Assembly (NCBI GenBank): GCA_023380915.1
Contig: JAMCSM010000021.1
Coordinates: 1-5,719 of the forward strand
Origin: Actinomycetota bacterium
Lineage (GTDB): Bacteria > Actinomycetota > Humimicrobiia > Humimicrobiales > Humimicrobiaceae
DNA length: 5,719 nucleotides
Reading direction: 5' to 3'
Every line of letters begins with the position of its first letter. Positions within the stretch are counted from its first letter, which is position 1. The position numbers and the translations under genes are program-made. The notes under the pieces were generated by a model. That model did not search any database. It was given only the letters and a program-made list of their open reading frames with translations, and was not told the DNA's origin. Positions 4 to 5,719 of the stretch are shown piece by piece.

Positions 4-609
4 TTATAGCTTTTTTTGTATTTTTGCTCTTACTAAATTTGTAATAATATGTGAAATTACCAGGTGCATATCTTCAACATATAAGTAATTATTGCTTGGT
101 ACAATTATTGATAAATCTGCAAGAGCTTTCATTTTACCGCCATTTGCACCTAAAAACGCTATTGCTTTTGCTTTATATTCTTTTGCTACTTTAAAAGCTT
201 CTATGATATTTTTGGAGTTTCCACTAGCGCTGAATCCGATAACCAGATCATCCTTTTTTATCCAATTTTTTAATTGTTCTGAAAAACATAAGTCATAACT
301 TACATCATTTGCCCAAGCTGTTATAATTGACACATTGTCATTAAGGGACATCGCTTTAAGTCTTTTATCACGTACGACAACCAGATCTTTTTCATCAGAT
401 ACTAATATATGTTTTGAAAGATCATTTATGAAGTGGGATGCAGTGTTGCTATGCCCACCATTTCCCATCGTAAAAATATGATTTTCATTTTCATAAGCTT
501 CCACAAAAAGATCTGTAGCTTTTTTTATTTCTTCAAGTGGCAGCTTTAGTAATATGTCTTTAAGCTCTCTTATGTAATTATTTATAAATTCTATTTCTTT
601 TACTTTCAT
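4..609 (-). CDS. GmhA-like SIS-domain phosphosugar isomerase
   Basis: This 201-residue protein is a single SIS (sugar isomerase) domain of the phosphoheptose isomerase (GmhA) type, about the family's usual length. It probably interconverts a ketose and an aldose phosphate in the cytoplasm. Visible signatures are the glycine-rich loop MGNGGHSNTASHF (residues 48-60), the phosphate-binding serine loop GFSASGNSKN (125-134), the LGANGGKM turn (153-160) and a C-terminal helix carrying EDMHLVISH (179-187). Aligned by eye to E. coli GmhA, the catalytic His is kept as His182, while the catalytic Glu65 position is Asp63. It is the last gene of the operon: its ATG lies 1 bp past the stop of the RuBisCO-like gene. 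Its only visible ribosome-site candidate (GGGA, 628-625) is rather far away, so translational coupling is likely. No ADP-heptose genes are present, so a catabolic phosphosugar is more likely than lipopolysaccharide heptose. The substrate is unknown. Confidence 0.9.
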   Translation of the reverse strand: MKVKEIEFINNYIRELKDILLKLPLEEIKKATDLFVEAYENENHIFTMGNGGHSNTASHFINDLSKHILVSDEKDLVVVRDKRLKAMSLNDNVSIITAWANDVSYDLCFSEQLKNWIKKDDLVIGFSASGNSKNIIEAFKVAKEYKAKAIAFLGANGGKMKALADLSIIVPSNNYLYVEDMHLVISHIITNLVRAKIQKKL

Positions 610-610
610 T

Positions 611-1792
611 TTAATTAATTTTTATCCCTGTTTTATATGTTTTTTTATATTTATTTACAACTTCCTTCATCTCTTCTACACCTGCAGTAATTCCTCCAGG
701 ATATTGAGTAATGCCAGTCCCCGCTAAAAGCATGACATCTGTTCCGAATTCCCGTAAATTTTCAAAAAGATTGCCAGGTTTTAATCCTCCAGAGAGTGCT
801 GGCATTACTTTTTTAATTCCATAAATAGGCATAGTCATAATATGATTCAATGACTTTATTTCCTCAATCTTACCTCCTACCAGATATCCACCCAATATAT
901 TAGATTTAAAATAATCTCCACCCATTAATCTTGCAAACTTTACAATTACCTCCGGGCTTACCCCCTGGCCTTCTGCCCTTCCAAAAGCTTCTTTGCCGCC
1001 ACAATGAGCATAAATAGGTACATTGTAGCTCTGCTCACGAAGTATTTTTAAACTGCTGAAACTAGCGGCAAAAATATTAATCATTAAAGCATTAGCTCCA
1101 TTTTTTAAAGCAATCTCTGCAAATTTAATGATATTTTCTGGACCAGTAGTTAAATGAGGAGCATATAAAACTCTCTTCCCAGTTATGTCTTCTGCTTTTT
1201 TTAATGCTGTTGCAACCTTTTTCACCCTTTCTTCCAGTGGACAATAATCTGTATTAAGCATCTTTTCATCATCTTTTATAAATTGCAGTCCGCCTAACCC
1301 AAATTGGTAACACATATCAGCAACTTCATCTGCTGTAAGACCGGAAGTAGGTTTGACGATTGTACCAAGAACCGGTTCATTTTTGGAAATACCTAAATAT
1401 TCCTTTGTTTTATCTAGTCCCCACCCAGGACCAGGAAAATATTTATACGCAAAATCCGGTAATTCAAAATCTACAAGTCTTGATTTTTCATAATTAACCA
1501 GAGCATGTGTTGCTCCTCCAATCATTGACAACCAGACCGAAGAAAAAGCACTTTCTTTCATATTGAAATTGATTAATGGAAAAAGTAAGCTTACAAAGCC
1601 CTTTCCTTTTTCAAATTCTTTTATTTCCAATACTTCTCCCCTGCAGCGCTCAAACAGATTTGTTGGTTTATGGTTCTTACTACTCCACTTACCAGTAGTT
1701 TCCAGTTCAGCAAGTTGTTCCGCAACCTCTTTTAAATCTTGATTTGTTTCAATATAATAAACAGCTTTTAAACTATCCTTAATTGAAGGCAT
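611..1792 (-). CDS. RuBisCO-like protein (form IV, non-carboxylating)
   Basis: This 393-residue homologue of the RuBisCO large subunit has an N-terminal alpha/beta domain (about 1-120) and a TIM barrel (about 135-385). It is shorter than true RuBisCO (about 470). Strand motifs align by eye: GTIVKPTSGLT (143-153, RuBisCO K175 region), GGLQFIKDDEK (167-177, carbamylated-Lys and metal site), YAHCGG (261-266, H294 region), GGDYFKSN (291-298, H327 region) and LSGGLKPG (333-340, S379 loop). K173, D175, E176, K147, H263 and S334 are kept. RuBisCO N123, K177, R295, H327 and K334 are replaced by G93, T149, C264, K296 and Y303. CO2 fixation on ribulose bisphosphate is therefore very unlikely. Characterised RuBisCO-like proteins act as enolases or isomerases (methionine salvage) or as decarboxylases/transcarboxylases on acid-sugar phosphates. 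Here the reaction is unknown, but a sugar-derived phosphate enolised through the Mg-carbamate is the natural inference. The ATG at 1792 has a modest AAAAAGGT ribosome site and lies 12 bp after the E1 beta stop. Confidence 0.93.
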   Translation of the reverse strand: MPSIKDSLKAVYYIETNQDLKEVAEQLAELETTGKWSSKNHKPTNLFERCRGEVLEIKEFEKGKGFVSLLFPLINFNMKESAFSSVWLSMIGGATHALVNYEKSRLVDFELPDFAYKYFPGPGWGLDKTKEYLGISKNEPVLGTIVKPTSGLTADEVADMCYQFGLGGLQFIKDDEKMLNTDYCPLEERVKKVATALKKAEDITGKRVLYAPHLTTGPENIIKFAEIALKNGANALMINIFAASFSSLKILREQSYNVPIYAHCGGKEAFGRAEGQGVSPEVIVKFARLMGGDYFKSNILGGYLVGGKIEEIKSLNHIMTMPIYGIKKVMPALSGGLKPGNLFENLREFGTDVMLLAGTGITQYPGGITAGVEEMKEVVNKYKKTYKTGIKIN

Positions 1793-1804
1793 TTTTTACC
1801 TTTT

Positions 1805-2788
1805 TTAATTTACCTTGTTAAAATATTCTTTTATCTTTTGCATGATCATATCAGTTTGCGGTATTACTATTTTTTCTAAATCGCGATTAAACGGAATCGG
1901 TGTATCCATTGCAGCTATCCTCTCAATTGGCCCATCAAGACAATCAAAAGCTTTTTCAGTTATCGCTGCACTAATTTCTGCACCAACCCCCCCTGTTTTA
2001 CAATCCTCTTCAACTATGATCAACCGATTTGTTTTATTTACTGAAGTAATTATTGTCGCAATATCCATTGGAGATAGTGTTCGGAGATCAATAACCTCTG
2101 CGTCTATCCCTTCAAGTTTTAGATTATTAGCAGCTTCAACTGTATTGTGAACCATTTTTGAATAAGAAACTAATGTGATATCATTGCCTTGTTTCTTTAT
2201 TTCTGCTTTTCCAAGTGGAATAGTATATTCTTCTTCCGGTATTAACCCTTTTTCATTATAAAGAAGTTTATGCTCAATAAACAAAACAGGATTATCATCT
2301 CTTATAGAAGATTTCAAAAGTCCCTTTGCGTCAAGAGGTGATGATGGCACTACCACTCTTATTCCAGGTATATGAATAAACCAGGATTCCAAGCTCTGTG
2401 AATGCTGGGCAGCATAACTTTTTCCTGCACCGCCCTGTGTCCTTATAACCAATGGAACTTTTGCGTTCCCTCCAGACATAAACCTTGTTTTAGCAACCTG
2501 ATTAAAAACCTGGTCCATACATGTACCTATAAAATCAATAAACATTATTTCGGCAATTGGTCTTAAGCCTGTTAAAGCACAACCTAGGGCTGCTCCAATA
2601 ATCGCAGACTCCGATATTGGAGTATCAATTACTCTTTCAGGGCCAAATTTTGTAAATAAACCCTTTGAAACTGCCATTGCACCGCCAAACAATCCGACAT
2701 CCTCTCCCAGGAAAATAATATTATTATCTTTATGCATTTCTTCGGCTATCGCTTCATTTAGCGCATCTCTATATGTTATTTCTCTCAA
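1805..2788 (-). CDS. TPP-dependent 2-oxoacid/acetoin dehydrogenase E1 beta subunit
   Basis: This 327-residue, full-length E1 beta subunit belongs to the pyruvate / branched-chain 2-oxoacid / acetoin dehydrogenase family. It pairs with E1 alpha as an alpha2beta2 tetramer in the cytoplasm. The transketolase pyrimidine-binding domain spans about 4-178 and the transketolase C-terminal domain about 195-318. Hallmarks are IFLGEDVGLFGG (25-36), DTPISESAIIGAALG (55-69) with Glu60 as the expected thiamine-activating glutamate, RTQGGAGKSYAAQHSQSLES (116-135) with active-site His129, and VSYSKMVHNTVEA (207-219). The start codon is TTG at 2788-2786. It gives the canonical MREITYRDALNEA N-terminus, and a GGGGAGG site lies 9 nt upstream; the next Met is residue 18, inside a conserved helix. 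The first 20 bp overlap the E1 alpha gene. Family membership is certain, but whether the substrate is pyruvate, acetoin, a 2-oxo acid or something new cannot be told. No lipoyl E2 or E3 gene lies in the window. Confidence 0.95.
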   Translation of the reverse strand: MREITYRDALNEAIAEEMHKDNNIIFLGEDVGLFGGAMAVSKGLFTKFGPERVIDTPISESAIIGAALGCALTGLRPIAEIMFIDFIGTCMDQVFNQVAKTRFMSGGNAKVPLVIRTQGGAGKSYAAQHSQSLESWFIHIPGIRVVVPSSPLDAKGLLKSSIRDDNPVLFIEHKLLYNEKGLIPEEEYTIPLGKAEIKKQGNDITLVSYSKMVHNTVEAANNLKLEGIDAEVIDLRTLSPMDIATIITSVNKTNRLIIVEEDCKTGGVGAEISAAITEKAFDCLDGPIERIAAMDTPIPFNRDLEKIVIPQTDMIMQKIKEYFNKVN

Positions 2789-3782
2789 AAAAAATTGCCT
2801 CCCCGAGTATATCTAAATCTGGCTCAACACTGTTAAACGCGTATTCCAATGCTTCGCTTATTTCTTCATCCACAGTTTTATTAATTTTTTCTATTTCAGC
2901 CATCGATATTTTAAAATTATTTATTAAACTTTTTTTAAAACATTCAATCGGGCACTTTTTTATCCAAATCTGTTCCTCTTCTTTAGTTCTATAAGGTTTA
3001 TGATCGCTTGCACCATGGCCCATGAAGCGGTATGTCTTACACTCTATAAGTGCCGGTCCTTTATTCTGCCTTGTATTATTAATTAATTCCCTTGTTTTAT
3101 CATAAACATCCATGACATCCATACCATCGGCAATTATTCCAGTTATTCCATAAGCTTTAGCTCTGTCAGCAATATCAGGGGTTGCCGATACCCTATGATA
3201 AAGAGTAGATAAGCCATAAAGATTATTTTCACATACAAAAATTACCGGCAGCTTAAAAGCAGCAGCAAAATTCAAAGATTCATGAAATGTACCTTGATTT
3301 GAAGCAGCATCACCAAAAAAACATACACATACCTGCTTTGTGTTTCTGTATTTTATAGAAATCCCGGCTCCAACCGATATCGGTAAACCAGCTCCAACTA
3401 TTCCGTTTGCTCCCAGATTGCCTACTTTCAGGTCTGCTATATGCATAGATCCGCCCAACCCCCGGCAATAACCAGTATCTTTTCCCAAAATTTCAGCAAA
3501 AATTTTTTTTAATTCCCCGCCTTTAGCCAGACAATGCCCATGGCCTCTATGCGTACTAATAATATAATCATCTTTACTTAGGTTTGCACAAACCCCTGCA
3601 GCTACAGCTTCTTCCCCGATATATAAGTGTGGCGACATACCAAACAGTTGACCATGTGTATACAATTCATAAATTTTTTCTTCCATTTTTCTAATTGACA
3701 GCATCTGATGATAAAATGACATCAATAATTCTCTTGGATATTTTTTAATCTCGGTAATTATTTTCTTATTGTTTGAAACCAT
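2769..3782 (-). CDS. TPP-dependent 2-oxoacid/acetoin dehydrogenase E1 alpha subunit
   Basis: This 337-residue E1 alpha subunit is the partner of the downstream E1 beta, and together they bind thiamine diphosphate and Mg at the subunit interface. One dehydrogenase E1 domain spans about residues 20-317. Visible motifs are HLYIGEEAVAAGV (52-64), STHRGHGHCLAKG (76-88) with conserved active-site histidines, CRGLGGSMHIAD (106-117), and the ThDP/Mg motif running from GDAASNQG (157-164) to CENN (184-187). The conserved C-terminal loop is YRFMGHGASDHKPYR (251-265). The central residue of the usual GDG is alanine (GDA). The short N-terminus and HLYIGEEA resemble acetoin dehydrogenase AcoA and Gram-positive PdhA, but specificity cannot be read from this. 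It is the first gene of the four-gene operon and overlaps E1 beta by 20 bp. The ATG at 3782 lacks a clear ribosome site. An internal ATG at 3722 (residue 21) would still leave the whole domain, so the first 20 residues are the uncertain part. Confidence 0.94.
   Translation of the reverse strand: MVSNNKKIITEIKKYPRELLMSFYHQMLSIRKMEEKIYELYTHGQLFGMSPHLYIGEEAVAAGVCANLSKDDYIISTHRGHGHCLAKGGELKKIFAEILGKDTGYCRGLGGSMHIADLKVGNLGANGIVGAGLPISVGAGISIKYRNTKQVCVCFFGDAASNQGTFHESLNFAAAFKLPVIFVCENNLYGLSTLYHRVSATPDIADRAKAYGITGIIADGMDVMDVYDKTRELINNTRQNKGPALIECKTYRFMGHGASDHKPYRTKEEEQIWIKKCPIECFKKSLINNFKISMAEIEKINKTVDEEISEALEYAFNSVEPDLDILGEAIFFERNNI
2798..2804 (-). promoter_or_regulatory. Ribosome binding site deciding the TTG start of E1 beta
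   Basis: On the minus strand GGGGAGG (2804-2798) lies 9 nt upstream of the TTG codon at 2788-2786, inside the 3' end of the E1 alpha gene. It is one of the two strongest Shine-Dalgarno sequences seen in the window. It supports TTG over the internal ATG 17 codons later. Confidence 0.8.
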
Positions 3783-3821
3783 ATATTCTAAAATAATACA
3801 AAAATAATTTTAATTTATTTA

Positions 3822-3860
3822 CAATATCAATATTATTCAGTTAAAATATTGATTATATTG
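3822..3860. repeat. Inverted repeat at the 5' leader of the E1 operon (candidate operator)
   Basis: ATCAATATT (3826-3834) and AATATTGAT (3845-3853) are perfect 9-bp inverted arms with a 10-nt spacer. CAAT (3822-3825) and ATTG (3857-3860) extend the symmetry after a 3-nt bulge. The element begins about 7 bp past the transcription start expected from the promoter at 3902-3874. Repressor operators often sit there, and a leader hairpin would too. Binding by the neighbouring DeoR protein is inference; the sequence differs from the dyad at 4976-5013. Confidence 0.45.
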
Positions 3861-3873
3861 AAAAATTATGTAA

Positions 3874-3902
3874 AATATAATACAAATGATTAAATGTGTC
3901 AA
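3874..3902 (-). promoter_or_regulatory. Sigma-70-type promoter of the E1-RuBisCO-like-SIS operon
   Basis: On the minus strand a perfect TTGACA -35 box (3902-3897) is followed after 17 bp by TATATT (3879-3874), which matches the TATAAT consensus at 5 of 6 positions. The predicted start near 3867 gives a leader of about 85 nt before the E1 alpha ATG. It is the best promoter match I found in the window. Confidence 0.7.
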
Positions 3903-4176: not shown

Positions 4177-4959
4177 ATGAAAAGCTTGGAAAGAAGAAAA
4201 AATATTATAGATATATTGAAACAACATGGAGAAATTAAAGTAAAAGAAATTTCAAAAATTCTTGGAGAGAAGGAAAATAATATAAGAAGAGATATCAGAA
4301 TTTTAAGAGATATGGAACTATTATCTAAAACATATGGCGGAATAAAAGCACTTAGCGAAGATAATTTTATTGAGAAATTTTTTTATAATGAAATTAATAA
4401 CAATTTTGAGAAAGAATTAATTGCACAAAAAGCACTTGAATATATAAAGGAAAATGAATCTATTTTTTTAGGATCCGGTACTACTGTTTTTAAACTTGCC
4501 GAGGTTTTAAATCAATACAACTATCCATTAAATATAGTAACAATTTCATTGCCGATTGCAACTTTGCTAGCTAAAAAGAATAACTTTAATTTGATATTCA
4601 TTGGCGGTACTTTAATAAGAGAAAATTTTTCTTTCGAAGGATCTATGGTCGAACAATTTTTGAATTATTTTAATATAGATAAAGCTTTCATAGGGGTAAG
4701 AGGATTTAGCTATGACCATGGTTTTACAATTCCTGCAATAGAGCAAGCTACAATGTTAAAGGCTCTTGCAAAATTATCAGAGGAAATAATTGTTTTGGTA
4801 GATCATACAAAATTTTTAAAAAAATGTCTGGTTATTCTTTCAACATTTACTGATGAGTTAATTAAAAATAAAATTAAGAAAGTAATTACTGATAAAGGTA
4901 CACCAACTAAAGATATTGAAAGACTAAGAACGGAAGGTACAGAAGTCATTATAGTTTAA
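4177..4959 (+). CDS. DeoR/GlpR-family sugar-phosphate-responsive transcriptional repressor
   Basis: This 260-residue protein has the usual DeoR-family length and layout. An N-terminal winged helix-turn-helix (about 4-57) includes ERRKNIIDIL (5-14), the recognition-helix region EKENNIRRDIRIL (31-43) and the wing KTYGG (51-55). The DeoRC effector domain (about 75-235), of the ribose-5-phosphate-isomerase-like fold, shows FLGSGTTVFKLAEVL (97-111), VTISLPIA (121-128), FIGGTLIRENFSFEG (141-155), a Gly-Phe segment around 173-184, and VDHTKF (208-213) near the C-terminus. Members usually repress nearby sugar-utilisation genes and release DNA when a phosphorylated intermediate binds the SGTT and GG loops. 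It is divergent from the E1 operon and upstream of a sugar kinase, so it probably controls both. The codons are visibly richer in A+T than those of the E1 operon. The effector is unknown. Family assignment is firm; the target set is inferred from position. Confidence 0.95.
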   Translation: MKSLERRKNIIDILKQHGEIKVKEISKILGEKENNIRRDIRILRDMELLSKTYGGIKALSEDNFIEKFFYNEINNNFEKELIAQKALEYIKENESIFLGSGTTVFKLAEVLNQYNYPLNIVTISLPIATLLAKKNNFNLIFIGGTLIRENFSFEGSMVEQFLNYFNIDKAFIGVRGFSYDHGFTIPAIEQATMLKALAKLSEEIIVLVDHTKFLKKCLVILSTFTDELIKNKIKKVITDKGTPTKDIERLRTEGTEVIIV

Positions 4960-5081: not shown

Positions 5082-5719
5082 ATGAATGATAATAAATATT
5101 TTGATATCGTAGGTTTTGGTATTACTACACTGGATTATGTTTGTTTAGTTGACAGAATTTCAACTTATGGTAAACAGGCAAACATTAGCGATGTTAAATT
5201 CCTTGGTGGCGGGGTAGCCTCAACAGCACTTGTTACTATTCAAAGACTTGGCAGCAATACTGCATTATATACAGTACTTGGAAGAGATTGCCTTGCAAAA
5301 GAAATATTAAAAGGACTTAAGGAGGAGGGGATAGACTGTAGTTTTATTGATTACAATAAGGATACTCTTTCAACCTTTAGCTTTATTCAAGTTAATAAAA
5401 AGTTAGGAAAACGTGCTATTGCTTATTATTCCGGCTCCGGGAGTTTATTAAAATTTAATGATAAAGTAAAAAATATGATAAAGAAAGGAAAATTTTTACT
5501 TTTAGACGGTATGTCTCCAAAGGAAAATTTAAAAGCTGCGGTATTTGCACATGAAAATAACGTAAAAATAATGCTAGATGCACATATTGTGCTTGATGGG
5601 ACGGATGAACTTTTAAAAAGTGTTGATTATCTGATTACTTCTGAATCTTTTTTATATGAGTATACAAAAAATAAAAATATTGAAAGTGGACTTAAAAAAC
5701 TTTATAGAAATTATAAGCC
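5082..5719 (+). CDS. PfkB/ribokinase-family sugar kinase, N-terminal part (cut by window end)
   Basis: The reading frame is open from ATG 5082 to the window edge: 212 codons plus 2 bases of a gene normally about 290-330 codons long. The PfkB fold is clear: the first strand FDIVGFGITTLDYVCLVDRI (7-26) with the sugar-binding Asp18, the lid region, GGGVASTALVTIQRLG (42-57) as PfkB signature 1, then VLGRDCLAKEILKGLKEEGI (65-84). It resembles the ketohexokinase / YihV branch more than ribokinase: the usual NEEE segment reads ITSESF (185-190). The ATP site and catalytic Asp (DTxGAGD motif) lie beyond the window, so activity cannot be confirmed. It probably phosphorylates the sugar or keto-sugar that feeds this pathway. 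The ribosome site is weak (GTAGAG, 5069-5074). The gene follows the DeoR gene by 122 bp, with its own candidate promoter and operator in between. Confidence 0.88.
   Translation, partial: MNDNKYFDIVGFGITTLDYVCLVDRISTYGKQANISDVKFLGGGVASTALVTIQRLGSNTALYTVLGRDCLAKEILKGLKEEGIDCSFIDYNKDTLSTFSFIQVNKKLGKRAIAYYSGSGSLLKFNDKVKNMIKKGKFLLLDGMSPKENLKAAVFAHENNVKIMLDAHIVLDGTDELLKSVDYLITSESFLYEYTKNKNIESGLKKLYRNYK

Follow-up and report, generated by a model that had tools for sequence, protein, structure and literature searches.

The window analysed here, a stretch of 5719 bases (GC 32%) from contig JAMCSM010000021.1 of an Actinomycetota bacterium, contains six open reading frames of interest, among them an operon that joins a RuBisCO-like protein (RLP) to the two subunits of a thiamine-dependent E1 enzyme and to an SIS-domain isomerase. 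Together with its recurrence in a distant GC-rich bacterium, this gene set suggests a pathway of sugar breakdown of which no description was found in the open-licence literature. The six genes are as follows.

4 to 609, minus strand: SIS-domain phosphosugar isomerase, 201 amino acids, GmhA-like but under the GmhA cut-off (PF13580, SIS_2/SIS, 51.2 bits)
611 to 1792, minus strand: RLP, 393 amino acids, of an uncharacterised clade (RuBisCO_large PF00016, 145 bits; RuBisCO_large_N PF02788, 29.2 bits)
1805 to 2788, minus strand: E1 beta, with a TTG start (Transket_pyr PF02779 and Transketolase_C PF02780)
2769 to 3782, minus strand: E1 alpha, the first gene of the operon, with the signature GMSPHLYIGEEA (E1_dh PF00676, 272 bits)
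4177 to 4959, plus strand: divergent DeoR-family repressor (DeoRC PF00455, 138 bits; HTH_DeoR PF08220)
5082 to 5717, plus strand: PfkB-family sugar kinase, its 3' end truncated by the window edge (PF00294, 74.5 bits on the part present)

The minus-strand genes are transcribed in the order E1 alpha, E1 beta, RLP, SIS; the two E1 genes overlap by 20 nt, and gaps of 12 and 1 nt separate E1 beta from RLP and RLP from SIS. The DeoR and PfkB genes lie on the plus strand, divergent from this four-gene operon, and the TTG start of E1 beta is preceded by GGGGAGG. The sequence-only reading of this DNA had described packed E1 alpha, E1 beta, RLP and SIS genes next to a DeoR repressor and a PfkB kinase, and all six reading frames lie where it placed them, with Pfam in agreement. 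It had also remarked on the absence of known RLP partners, and in the window's six proteins Pfam likewise detected neither a class II aldolase nor a domain of the DUF1537 kinase or PdxA-like kind. Only E1 beta exceeds an NCBIfam cut-off, that of the broad subfamily model PRK09212 (412.5 bits; cut-off 321).

The same four genes are contiguous in a second genome, the metagenome-assembled genome (MAG) Candidatus Zipacnadum vermilionense (G004), on a 236-kb contig. At this locus (L004) RLP, SIS, E1 alpha and E1 beta are followed by an E2 protein with lipoyl, E3-binding and acyltransferase domains and by a cupin; a zinc dehydrogenase gene lies upstream, as does one for a Gfo/Idh dehydrogenase. The products are 58% (RLP), 46% (SIS), 52% (E1 alpha) and 62% (E1 beta) identical to those of the window, and the GC content is 66% compared with 32%. 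RLP is the first gene in L004 and the third of four in the window, so the order has been shuffled while the set has been kept together. Further along L004 are genes that read as an ABC transporter.

As an indirect stand-in for linkage, in which chance matches are possible, the longest-contig sizes in nt were compared across the 120 best homologues of RLP, E1 alpha and SIS. Among contigs of at least 3 kb, RLP and SIS share three sizes (83203, 4742, and 5118 nt; control mean 0.23, maximum 2), RLP and E1 alpha three (5118, 39010, and 6588 nt; control 0.29, maximum 2), and E1 alpha and SIS four (22034, 5118, 42405, and 4434 nt; control 0.30, maximum 3). The size of 5118 nt is common to all three sets, and the RLP and SIS proteins of the 83203-nt contigs share the organism name Actinobacteria bacterium. 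A 1619-nt RLP/SIS pair is probably due to chance, and the 6588-nt pair (P0075/P0218) may be. These matches suggest that the four-gene linkage is present in further metagenome relatives.

Based on these observations, it is very improbable that the genes are chance neighbours or an assembly artefact. In favour of such an origin, the window lies on a single contig and the linkage is rare (see below), but the window genes overlap or nearly abut, the matches of equal-sized contigs of at least 3 kb exceed the control, and the four genes are contiguous on the long contig of a distant MAG. Chance adjacency was rejected, refuted in the main by L004.

The RLP belongs to the RuBisCO superfamily, and broadly to form IV, by its N-terminal and catalytic domains, its fold and an incomplete set of carboxylase residues. 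Its AlphaFold2 model (pLDDT 89.7, pTM 0.89) resembles RuBisCO and RLP structures over nearly the full length in a fold search, with a best TM-score of 0.88-0.89 (Pyrococcus RuBisCO). We found 341 homologues at E <= 1e-3; the best among the matches listed is 85% identical, and the closest relatives (62-85%) have metagenomes and MAGs as their named sources, with the clade occurring in MAGs named Armatimonadota, Chloroflexota, Acidobacteriota, Planctomycetota and Omnitrophota. A tree was built from 55 of the best 120 of these homologues (window included), 30 RLPs from loci and 2 solved structures. In it the family forms a single clade, set off by a long stem (1.05, SH-aLRT 99) and holding 75 of the 87 rows, separate from RLPs of the OiaX and acid-sugar-kinase-linked kinds, from MtnW, from form III RuBisCO and from other kinds of RLP in Pelolinea; the tree came from a quick search, and the exact placement of the two solved structures, which sit on long branches, is unsure. 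No solved structure matched in a profile search run at E 1e-60, a threshold that was too strict.

Residues were counted in a core group of 64 rows; the row sets A1 and A2 held 30 and 24 rows, and loci L105, L112 and L113 were little used or not used. K147, K173, D175, E176 and H263 (window numbering) are invariant in 64/64 core RLPs. These positions correspond to K175, K201, D203, E204 and H294 of RuBisCO, and K173, by its position, would be the carbamylated lysine of the metal site. The window has T149, C264, K267, K296 and Y303 at RuBisCO K177, R295, H298, H327 and K334. Across the core rows, K177 is T, R295 is C and K334 is Y in 64/64, while H298 is K in 59 and R in 5, and H327 is R in 59 and K in 5 (the window among the latter). 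The residue list of RuBisCO forms I-III (K175, K177, K201, D203, E204, H294, R295, H327 and K334) is thus broken at K177, R295, H327 and K334 in every core row. In RuBisCO the replaced residues handle phosphate and CO2. With one set invariant and the other exchanged, the metal and enolisation apparatus is kept and the residues handling phosphate and CO2 are replaced, a pattern unlike that of OiaX-type and other RLPs compared.

Eleven second-tier RLP rows, 37-45% identical to the window, diverge further at the active site. Three of them, 42-45% identical to the window (L108:2986-4185, L110:9397-10590 and L111:9775-10977), have S and E in place of the K201 and H294 equivalents; without that carbamyl lysine and that histidine, they may have no catalytic activity or may catalyse a different reaction. 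Their surroundings share folD-like and biotin carboxylase-like genes, as read from the N-termini.

No NCBIfam model of a characterised function accepts the window RLP. It scores 203.2 against a cut-off of 497.45 for rubisco_III, 187.3 against 438 for the RuBisCO large subunit, 132.9 against 513.6 and 172.4 against 409 bits for the two mtnW models, and 167.9 against 700 for OiaX (NF042437). These scores bear on a salvage reading (methionine or 5-deoxyribose salvage), in which the RLP would act as an enolase or isomerase on methylthioribulose or deoxyribulose 1-phosphate and E1 would cleave 1-deoxy-D-xylulose 5-phosphate (DXP) to acetyl-coenzyme A (CoA) and glyceraldehyde 3-phosphate. Such a route has precedents in the Rhodospirillum rubrum RLP, which together with a cupin is reported to make DXP from methylthioribulose 1-phosphate (PMC4958253), and in a 5-deoxyribose pathway that uses a kinase, an isomerase and an aldolase (PMC6079011), and in both L001 and L004 a PF01050-type cupin is encoded close to the RLP. 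Nevertheless, we judge it to have little chance of being correct. Both mtnW scores are far under their cut-offs, the L001 and L004 cupins match the mannose-6-phosphate isomerase family, and the window isomerase is of the SIS/GmhA type, whereas those routes use a sugar-1-phosphate isomerase family.

The neighbours of other RLPs bear on an acid-sugar pathway, in which the RLP would be an OiaX-like decarboxylase of a beta-keto acid phosphate: a dehydrogenase would form the keto acid, PfkB would phosphorylate it, the RLP would release CO2, SIS would convert the ketose phosphate to an aldose phosphate, and E1 would act on a later 2-oxo acid. RLPs that decarboxylate 3-oxo-isoapionate-4-phosphate have been reported (PMC6302742, citing Carter 2018). 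A Gfo/Idh protein is found near the RLP in L004, L006, L010 and L147, and PfkB adjoins a core RLP in L002 and L147. We compared six RLPs of the OiaX or acid-sugar-kinase-linked kinds, five beside annotated four-carbon acid sugar kinases (L140-L144) and one whose neighbour reads as such a kinase (L115). They keep R295 in 6/6, H327 in 5/6 and K334 in 6/6, all of which are replaced in the 64 core rows, and the window contains no DUF1537 kinase or dehydrogenase and has an OiaX score far under the cut-off. On balance this pathway is rather unlikely for the window. In their ordinary forms, methionine salvage and the apionate pathway were rejected, because equivalog cut-offs failed and residues differ.

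Other neighbours of the core RLPs are varied. In L005, an FGGY kinase, a DeoC/LacD aldolase and a PfkB-like kinase, the last identified by BLAST alone, are encoded within 4 kb of the RLP; L006 has an alpha/beta hydrolase as well as a xylose-isomerase-like barrel, L010 an alpha/beta hydrolase and a member of the ribulose-phosphate 3-epimerase family, L001 an IlvD/Edd dehydratase, a cupin and a mannitol dehydrogenase, and L003 a mannitol dehydrogenase. This variety suggests that the clade acts in sugar catabolism with changing partners, the E1/SIS set being one variant. In L003 (4730-6079) and L009 (7375-8766), from two phyla, long proteins in whose N-terminal part HTH motifs precede L(A/S)ARG are encoded upstream of the RLP; by eye they resemble uronate isomerases, with no Pfam match at E 1e-5.

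The E1 alpha and E1 beta proteins of the window have the domains of a 2-oxo acid or acetoin dehydrogenase complex, and E1 beta carries an AAQHSQ stretch whose H-S is retained in relatives. E1 alpha scores 361.7 bits with the pyruvate dehydrogenase E1 alpha model TIGR03182, under the cut-off of 393.85. The motif GMSPHL(Y/S/C)IG(E/Q)EA marks its subfamily, and 111 of the top 120 homologues carry MSPH. In a tree of the window, 73 of these 120 homologues and 28 E1s from loci (L136 and L137 absent, probably through the pruning of reading frames), the GMSPHL E1 alphas form one group of 69 of the 102 rows (support 91) that contains the window and L004; the other G004 E1 included in the tree (L106) and the Pelolinea E1s fall outside it. 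Because E2 is encoded behind the E1 pair in L004, a CoA-forming oxidative cleavage is likelier than a free transketolase-like step, and the thiamine step predicted from these genes is probably of that kind.

The distribution of this E1 alpha and of the RLP was examined with profiles. In the phylum of L004, the RLP profile matched 7/151 genomes (E <= 1e-60) and the GMSPHL E1 alpha profile 1/201 (E <= 1e-140), the latter being the RLP-linked copy. The E1 alpha profile matched none of 247 genomes in the phylum of G006 (E 1e-125), none of 246 in that of G010 (E 1e-140) and none of 14 in that of G008 (E 1e-138). In the phylum of the Pelolinea MAG G005 it matched 33/301 (E 1e-125), and GMSPHL was found in none of 20 E1 loci examined from those genomes. 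The letters MSPH occur in a six-frame reading of L133, yet its E1 reads HGTTHLSIGEEA. The RLP profile was found in 1/400 genomes of the G005 phylum, G005 itself (E 1e-80), and in 3/219 of the class of G002 (G002, G009 and G1160; E 1e-110). A plasmid megablast with the window gave no match.

A further explanation would make the E1 pair an additional pyruvate or acetoin dehydrogenase whose only task is to remove the end product; RLP and SIS would then be the actual pathway, and E1 would lie there to be co-regulated with it. E1 beta passes the cut-off of the pyruvate dehydrogenase subfamily PRK09212, E1-E2 clusters recur in the Pelolinea G005 neighbourhoods read, and a GMSPHL E1 is missing from 10 of the 11 genomes with a core RLP. 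However, E1 alpha lies in its own GMSPHL subfamily and under the TIGR03182 cut-off, and the SIS-E1 matches of equal-sized contigs hint at a tie to sugar phosphate steps, which leaves this explanation doubtful. A housekeeping pyruvate dehydrogenase is unlikely, given the placement in the E1 tree and the presence of other E1s in G004.

The window SIS protein scores 117.6 bits with gmhA (TIGR00441; cut-off 209.45), and its best solved relatives are phosphoheptose isomerases. The motifs GNGGH..TASH and ED.H are present in the window and L004 proteins. The PfkB kinase belongs to PF00294 and is under the NCBIfam cut-offs.

From the observed gene content, packing, linkage and residues, we infer the substrate, the step order and every reaction of the following route: a DeoR-controlled operon in which a kinase and an isomerase would yield a ketose phosphate, the RLP would perform enolate chemistry, and an E1-E2-E3 complex would cleave the product oxidatively to an acyl-CoA. 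We assign this reading a probability of about 0.55. The PfkB kinase, whose gene is divergent and truncated by the window, would phosphorylate a sugar or sugar acid, and the SIS protein, judged by its fold and relatives, would interconvert aldose and ketose phosphates. The RLP is predicted to be a metal-dependent enolising enzyme that abstracts a proton next to a ketone. It could then shift the carbonyl to another position in the chain, in the manner of the R. rubrum methylthioribulose 1-phosphate (MTRu-1P) isomerase, or decarboxylate a beta-keto acid phosphate, as OiaX does. The result would be either a 2-oxo acid or an alpha-ketol such as a deoxyketose phosphate. The E1 pair, working with E2 and E3 proteins whose genes would lie beyond the window, would perform a thiamine diphosphate-dependent cleavage of it to an acyl-CoA and an aldehyde phosphate or CO2. 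Carbonyl migration is only tentatively proposed for the RLP and is slightly favoured over decarboxylation, itself a doubtful assignment.

The specific combination in which the carbonyl shift gives a DXP-like alpha-ketol that a dedicated acetoin-dehydrogenase-type complex splits to an acyl-CoA and an aldehyde phosphate is a speculative and unlikely version. In favour of the proposed route as a whole, the R. rubrum RLP is reported to convert a ketose 1-phosphate to 1-methylthioxylulose-5P, which leads to DXP (PMC4958253), and a mutant pyruvate dehydrogenase E1 is reported to have raised DXP in Escherichia coli about 20-fold (PMC3424233). The latter result indicates that an E1 is chemically able to produce DXP and, in principle, to split it.

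Several results weigh against the proposed route. Among the 80 RLP loci, the best of 428 relatives in a genome-contig scan in which several contigs or flanks were short, 11 have an RLP at least 50% identical to the window's, and an SIS match lies beside the RLP in only one of the 80, L004. A GMSPHL E1 occurs in 1 of the 11 core-RLP genomes, again G004; among the 25 E1 loci of these genomes at E <= 1e-80, MSPH appears in any frame only in L145, the L004 copy. Since the linkage is rare, RLPs of this clade also work without SIS and E1 partners. Other core RLPs lie beside PfkB, Gfo/Idh, mannitol dehydrogenase or IlvD with no E1 nearby, so that the product of the RLP does not have to pass to an E1. 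E2 directly follows E1 beta in L004, but the window itself shows neither E2 nor E3. When contigs of any size are counted, the excess of size matches is weaker, with 5 for RLP/SIS (control mean 0.87, maximum 7), 3 for RLP/E1 alpha (mean 1.34, maximum 5) and 7 for E1 alpha/SIS (mean 1.53, maximum 6).

These results also bear on the remaining claims of the sequence-only reading, which had tied its case to linkage in related genomes. The linkage recurs in L004, and equal-sized contigs suggest it in some metagenome relatives, but conservation in the neighbourhood comparison is rare (1/80 loci, 1/11 genomes). Its two other concerns, that the RLP might fall in a clade of proven function and the E1 genes be ordinary pyruvate dehydrogenase, were not borne out: cut-offs, tree and residues place the RLP in none of MtnW, OiaX and RuBisCO, and the E1 tree places E1 alpha in another subfamily than L106 of G004. 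Its thiamine-dependent C-C cleavage survives in part, as the E1 pair is present but the step is probably oxidative and CoA-forming, not free and transketolase-like. The proposal of consecutive steps gains from the linkage and from an RLP outside the tested clades of proven function, while the rarity of that linkage limits it; step order, kinase role and substrate stay putative.

RLPs with an established function are few; those named in the sources available are the enolase of methionine salvage, the isomerase of R. rubrum and enzymes of the apiose pathway (PMC4958253, PMC6302742). No description of an RLP-E1 gene linkage was found in the titles, abstracts and passages available from the open-licence literature, which is weak evidence of novelty, and the available parts of PMC10892978, PMC8307300 and PMC7895386 do not mention one. 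The active-site signature peculiar to the RLP clade and its partly recurring partners narrow the possible reactions enough for purified enzymes to be assayed. Should the product of the RLP indeed pass to the E1 complex, the operon would represent a new bacterial way from sugar to acyl-CoA that bypasses pyruvate, and the RuBisCO fold would have gained a further reaction; should the carbonyl shift be correct, a RuBisCO fold would feed a thiamine dehydrogenase and acetyl- or glycolyl-CoA would be made from sugar without passing through pyruvate.

Genes for RLPs of other clades also lie near E1 genes, a point in favour of the proposed route. The 2.5-Mb Pelolinea MAG G005 has at least 9 E1 alpha genes (strong matches). 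In its stretches L099-L102, E1-E2 clusters stand among sugar-type genes, and two of them lie by other-clade RLPs. One such RLP is about 90 nt from E1 alpha-E1 beta-E2 genes with a class II aldolase (L101), and another is 2.8 kb from such a cluster with a class II fructose bisphosphate (FBP) aldolase and a HAD hydrolase (L102); by an after-the-fact estimate, the chance of two of four G005 RLPs lying within 3 kb of an E1 is about 0.003. The L101 RLP (15396-16799) and that of L116 (8828-10180) are of a kind distinct from the window's clade, with MtnW as the nearest solved structure. The former is under the MtnW cut-off, and the part of L116 listed gave no E1 match.

A different oxidoreductase accompanies E1 genes on plasmids. 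In 3/3 Rhizobium and Aminobacter loci, those read among 221 plasmid records with an E1 match, a DRL-domain oxidoreductase (PF21135) is encoded directly before E1 alpha-E1 beta-E2. The loci are the following.

L137:7615-13778, Rhizobium and Aminobacter plasmid set: DRL-E1 alpha-E1 beta-E2
L138:7610-12257, same set: DRL-E1 alpha-E1 beta-E2
L139:7616-12350, same set: DRL-E1 alpha-E1 beta-E2

L137 also encodes E3, a class II FBP aldolase and a HAD hydrolase, and L138 adjoins a glucitol-type phosphotransferase system and thiamine genes. From this gene content, the loci could possibly be a catabolic route via methylerythritol phosphate or DXP to acetyl-CoA. DXR-II (DRL) enzymes are reported to act on DXP in isoprenoid synthesis and the DLO1 and DLO2 families seemingly not to; four DXR-II-like (DLO) oxidoreductases tested could not replace DXR (PMC3847144). 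The Rhizobium and Aminobacter proteins may be of either kind, so that the arrangement, though in favour of the proposed route, is a loose parallel to the window and only hints that such E1s handle DXP-like ketols.

Two putative control elements precede the operon.

3874 to 3902, minus strand: sigma-70-like promoter candidate upstream of E1 alpha, TTGACA-17-TATATT, 11/12 (consensus match only)
3811 to 3868, no strand assigned: imperfect inverted repeat, arms with AATATTGAT, 75% complementary (pattern match, pair I1)

The promoter pattern is weak, as 17 such sites occur in the stretch compared with 13.4 expected in shuffles. The inverted repeat, near the promoter-like site, is a possible DeoR operator.

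Among known systems, the R. rubrum MTRu-1P isomerase (a Deep-Ykr RLP of the methylthioadenosine-isoprenoid shunt) is, by its published description, like the proposed enzyme in being an RLP that acts on a ketose phosphate and feeds a DXP-like alpha-ketol; unlike it, no E1 or SIS partner is described in the parts of that source available. OiaX, the 3-oxo-isoapionate-4-phosphate decarboxylase, and the DUF1537-kinase-linked RLPs also belong to sugar catabolic operons with a kinase, but of another family; they are separate from the window clade in the tree and keep R295 and K334 in 6/6, where that clade has C and Y. MtnW, the 2,3-diketo-5-methylthiopentyl-1-phosphate enolase (2oek), shares the K175 equivalent, KDDE and H294 and the absence of R295 and K334, yet sits on a long separate branch, with the window RLP far under the mtnW cut-offs. 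The SIS domain and the best solved relatives connect the window isomerase to the sedoheptulose-7-phosphate isomerase GmhA, whereas its score is under the gmhA cut-off and its motifs differ from the GmhA motif. Finally, the E1 pair resembles the acetoin and pyruvate dehydrogenase E1s of the AcoAB/PdhAB type in its E1_dh, Transket_pyr and Transketolase_C domains and in the E2 that follows in L004, but differs from them in belonging to the GMSPHL subfamily, in standing beside RLP and SIS, and in that neither E2 nor E3 is seen in the window.

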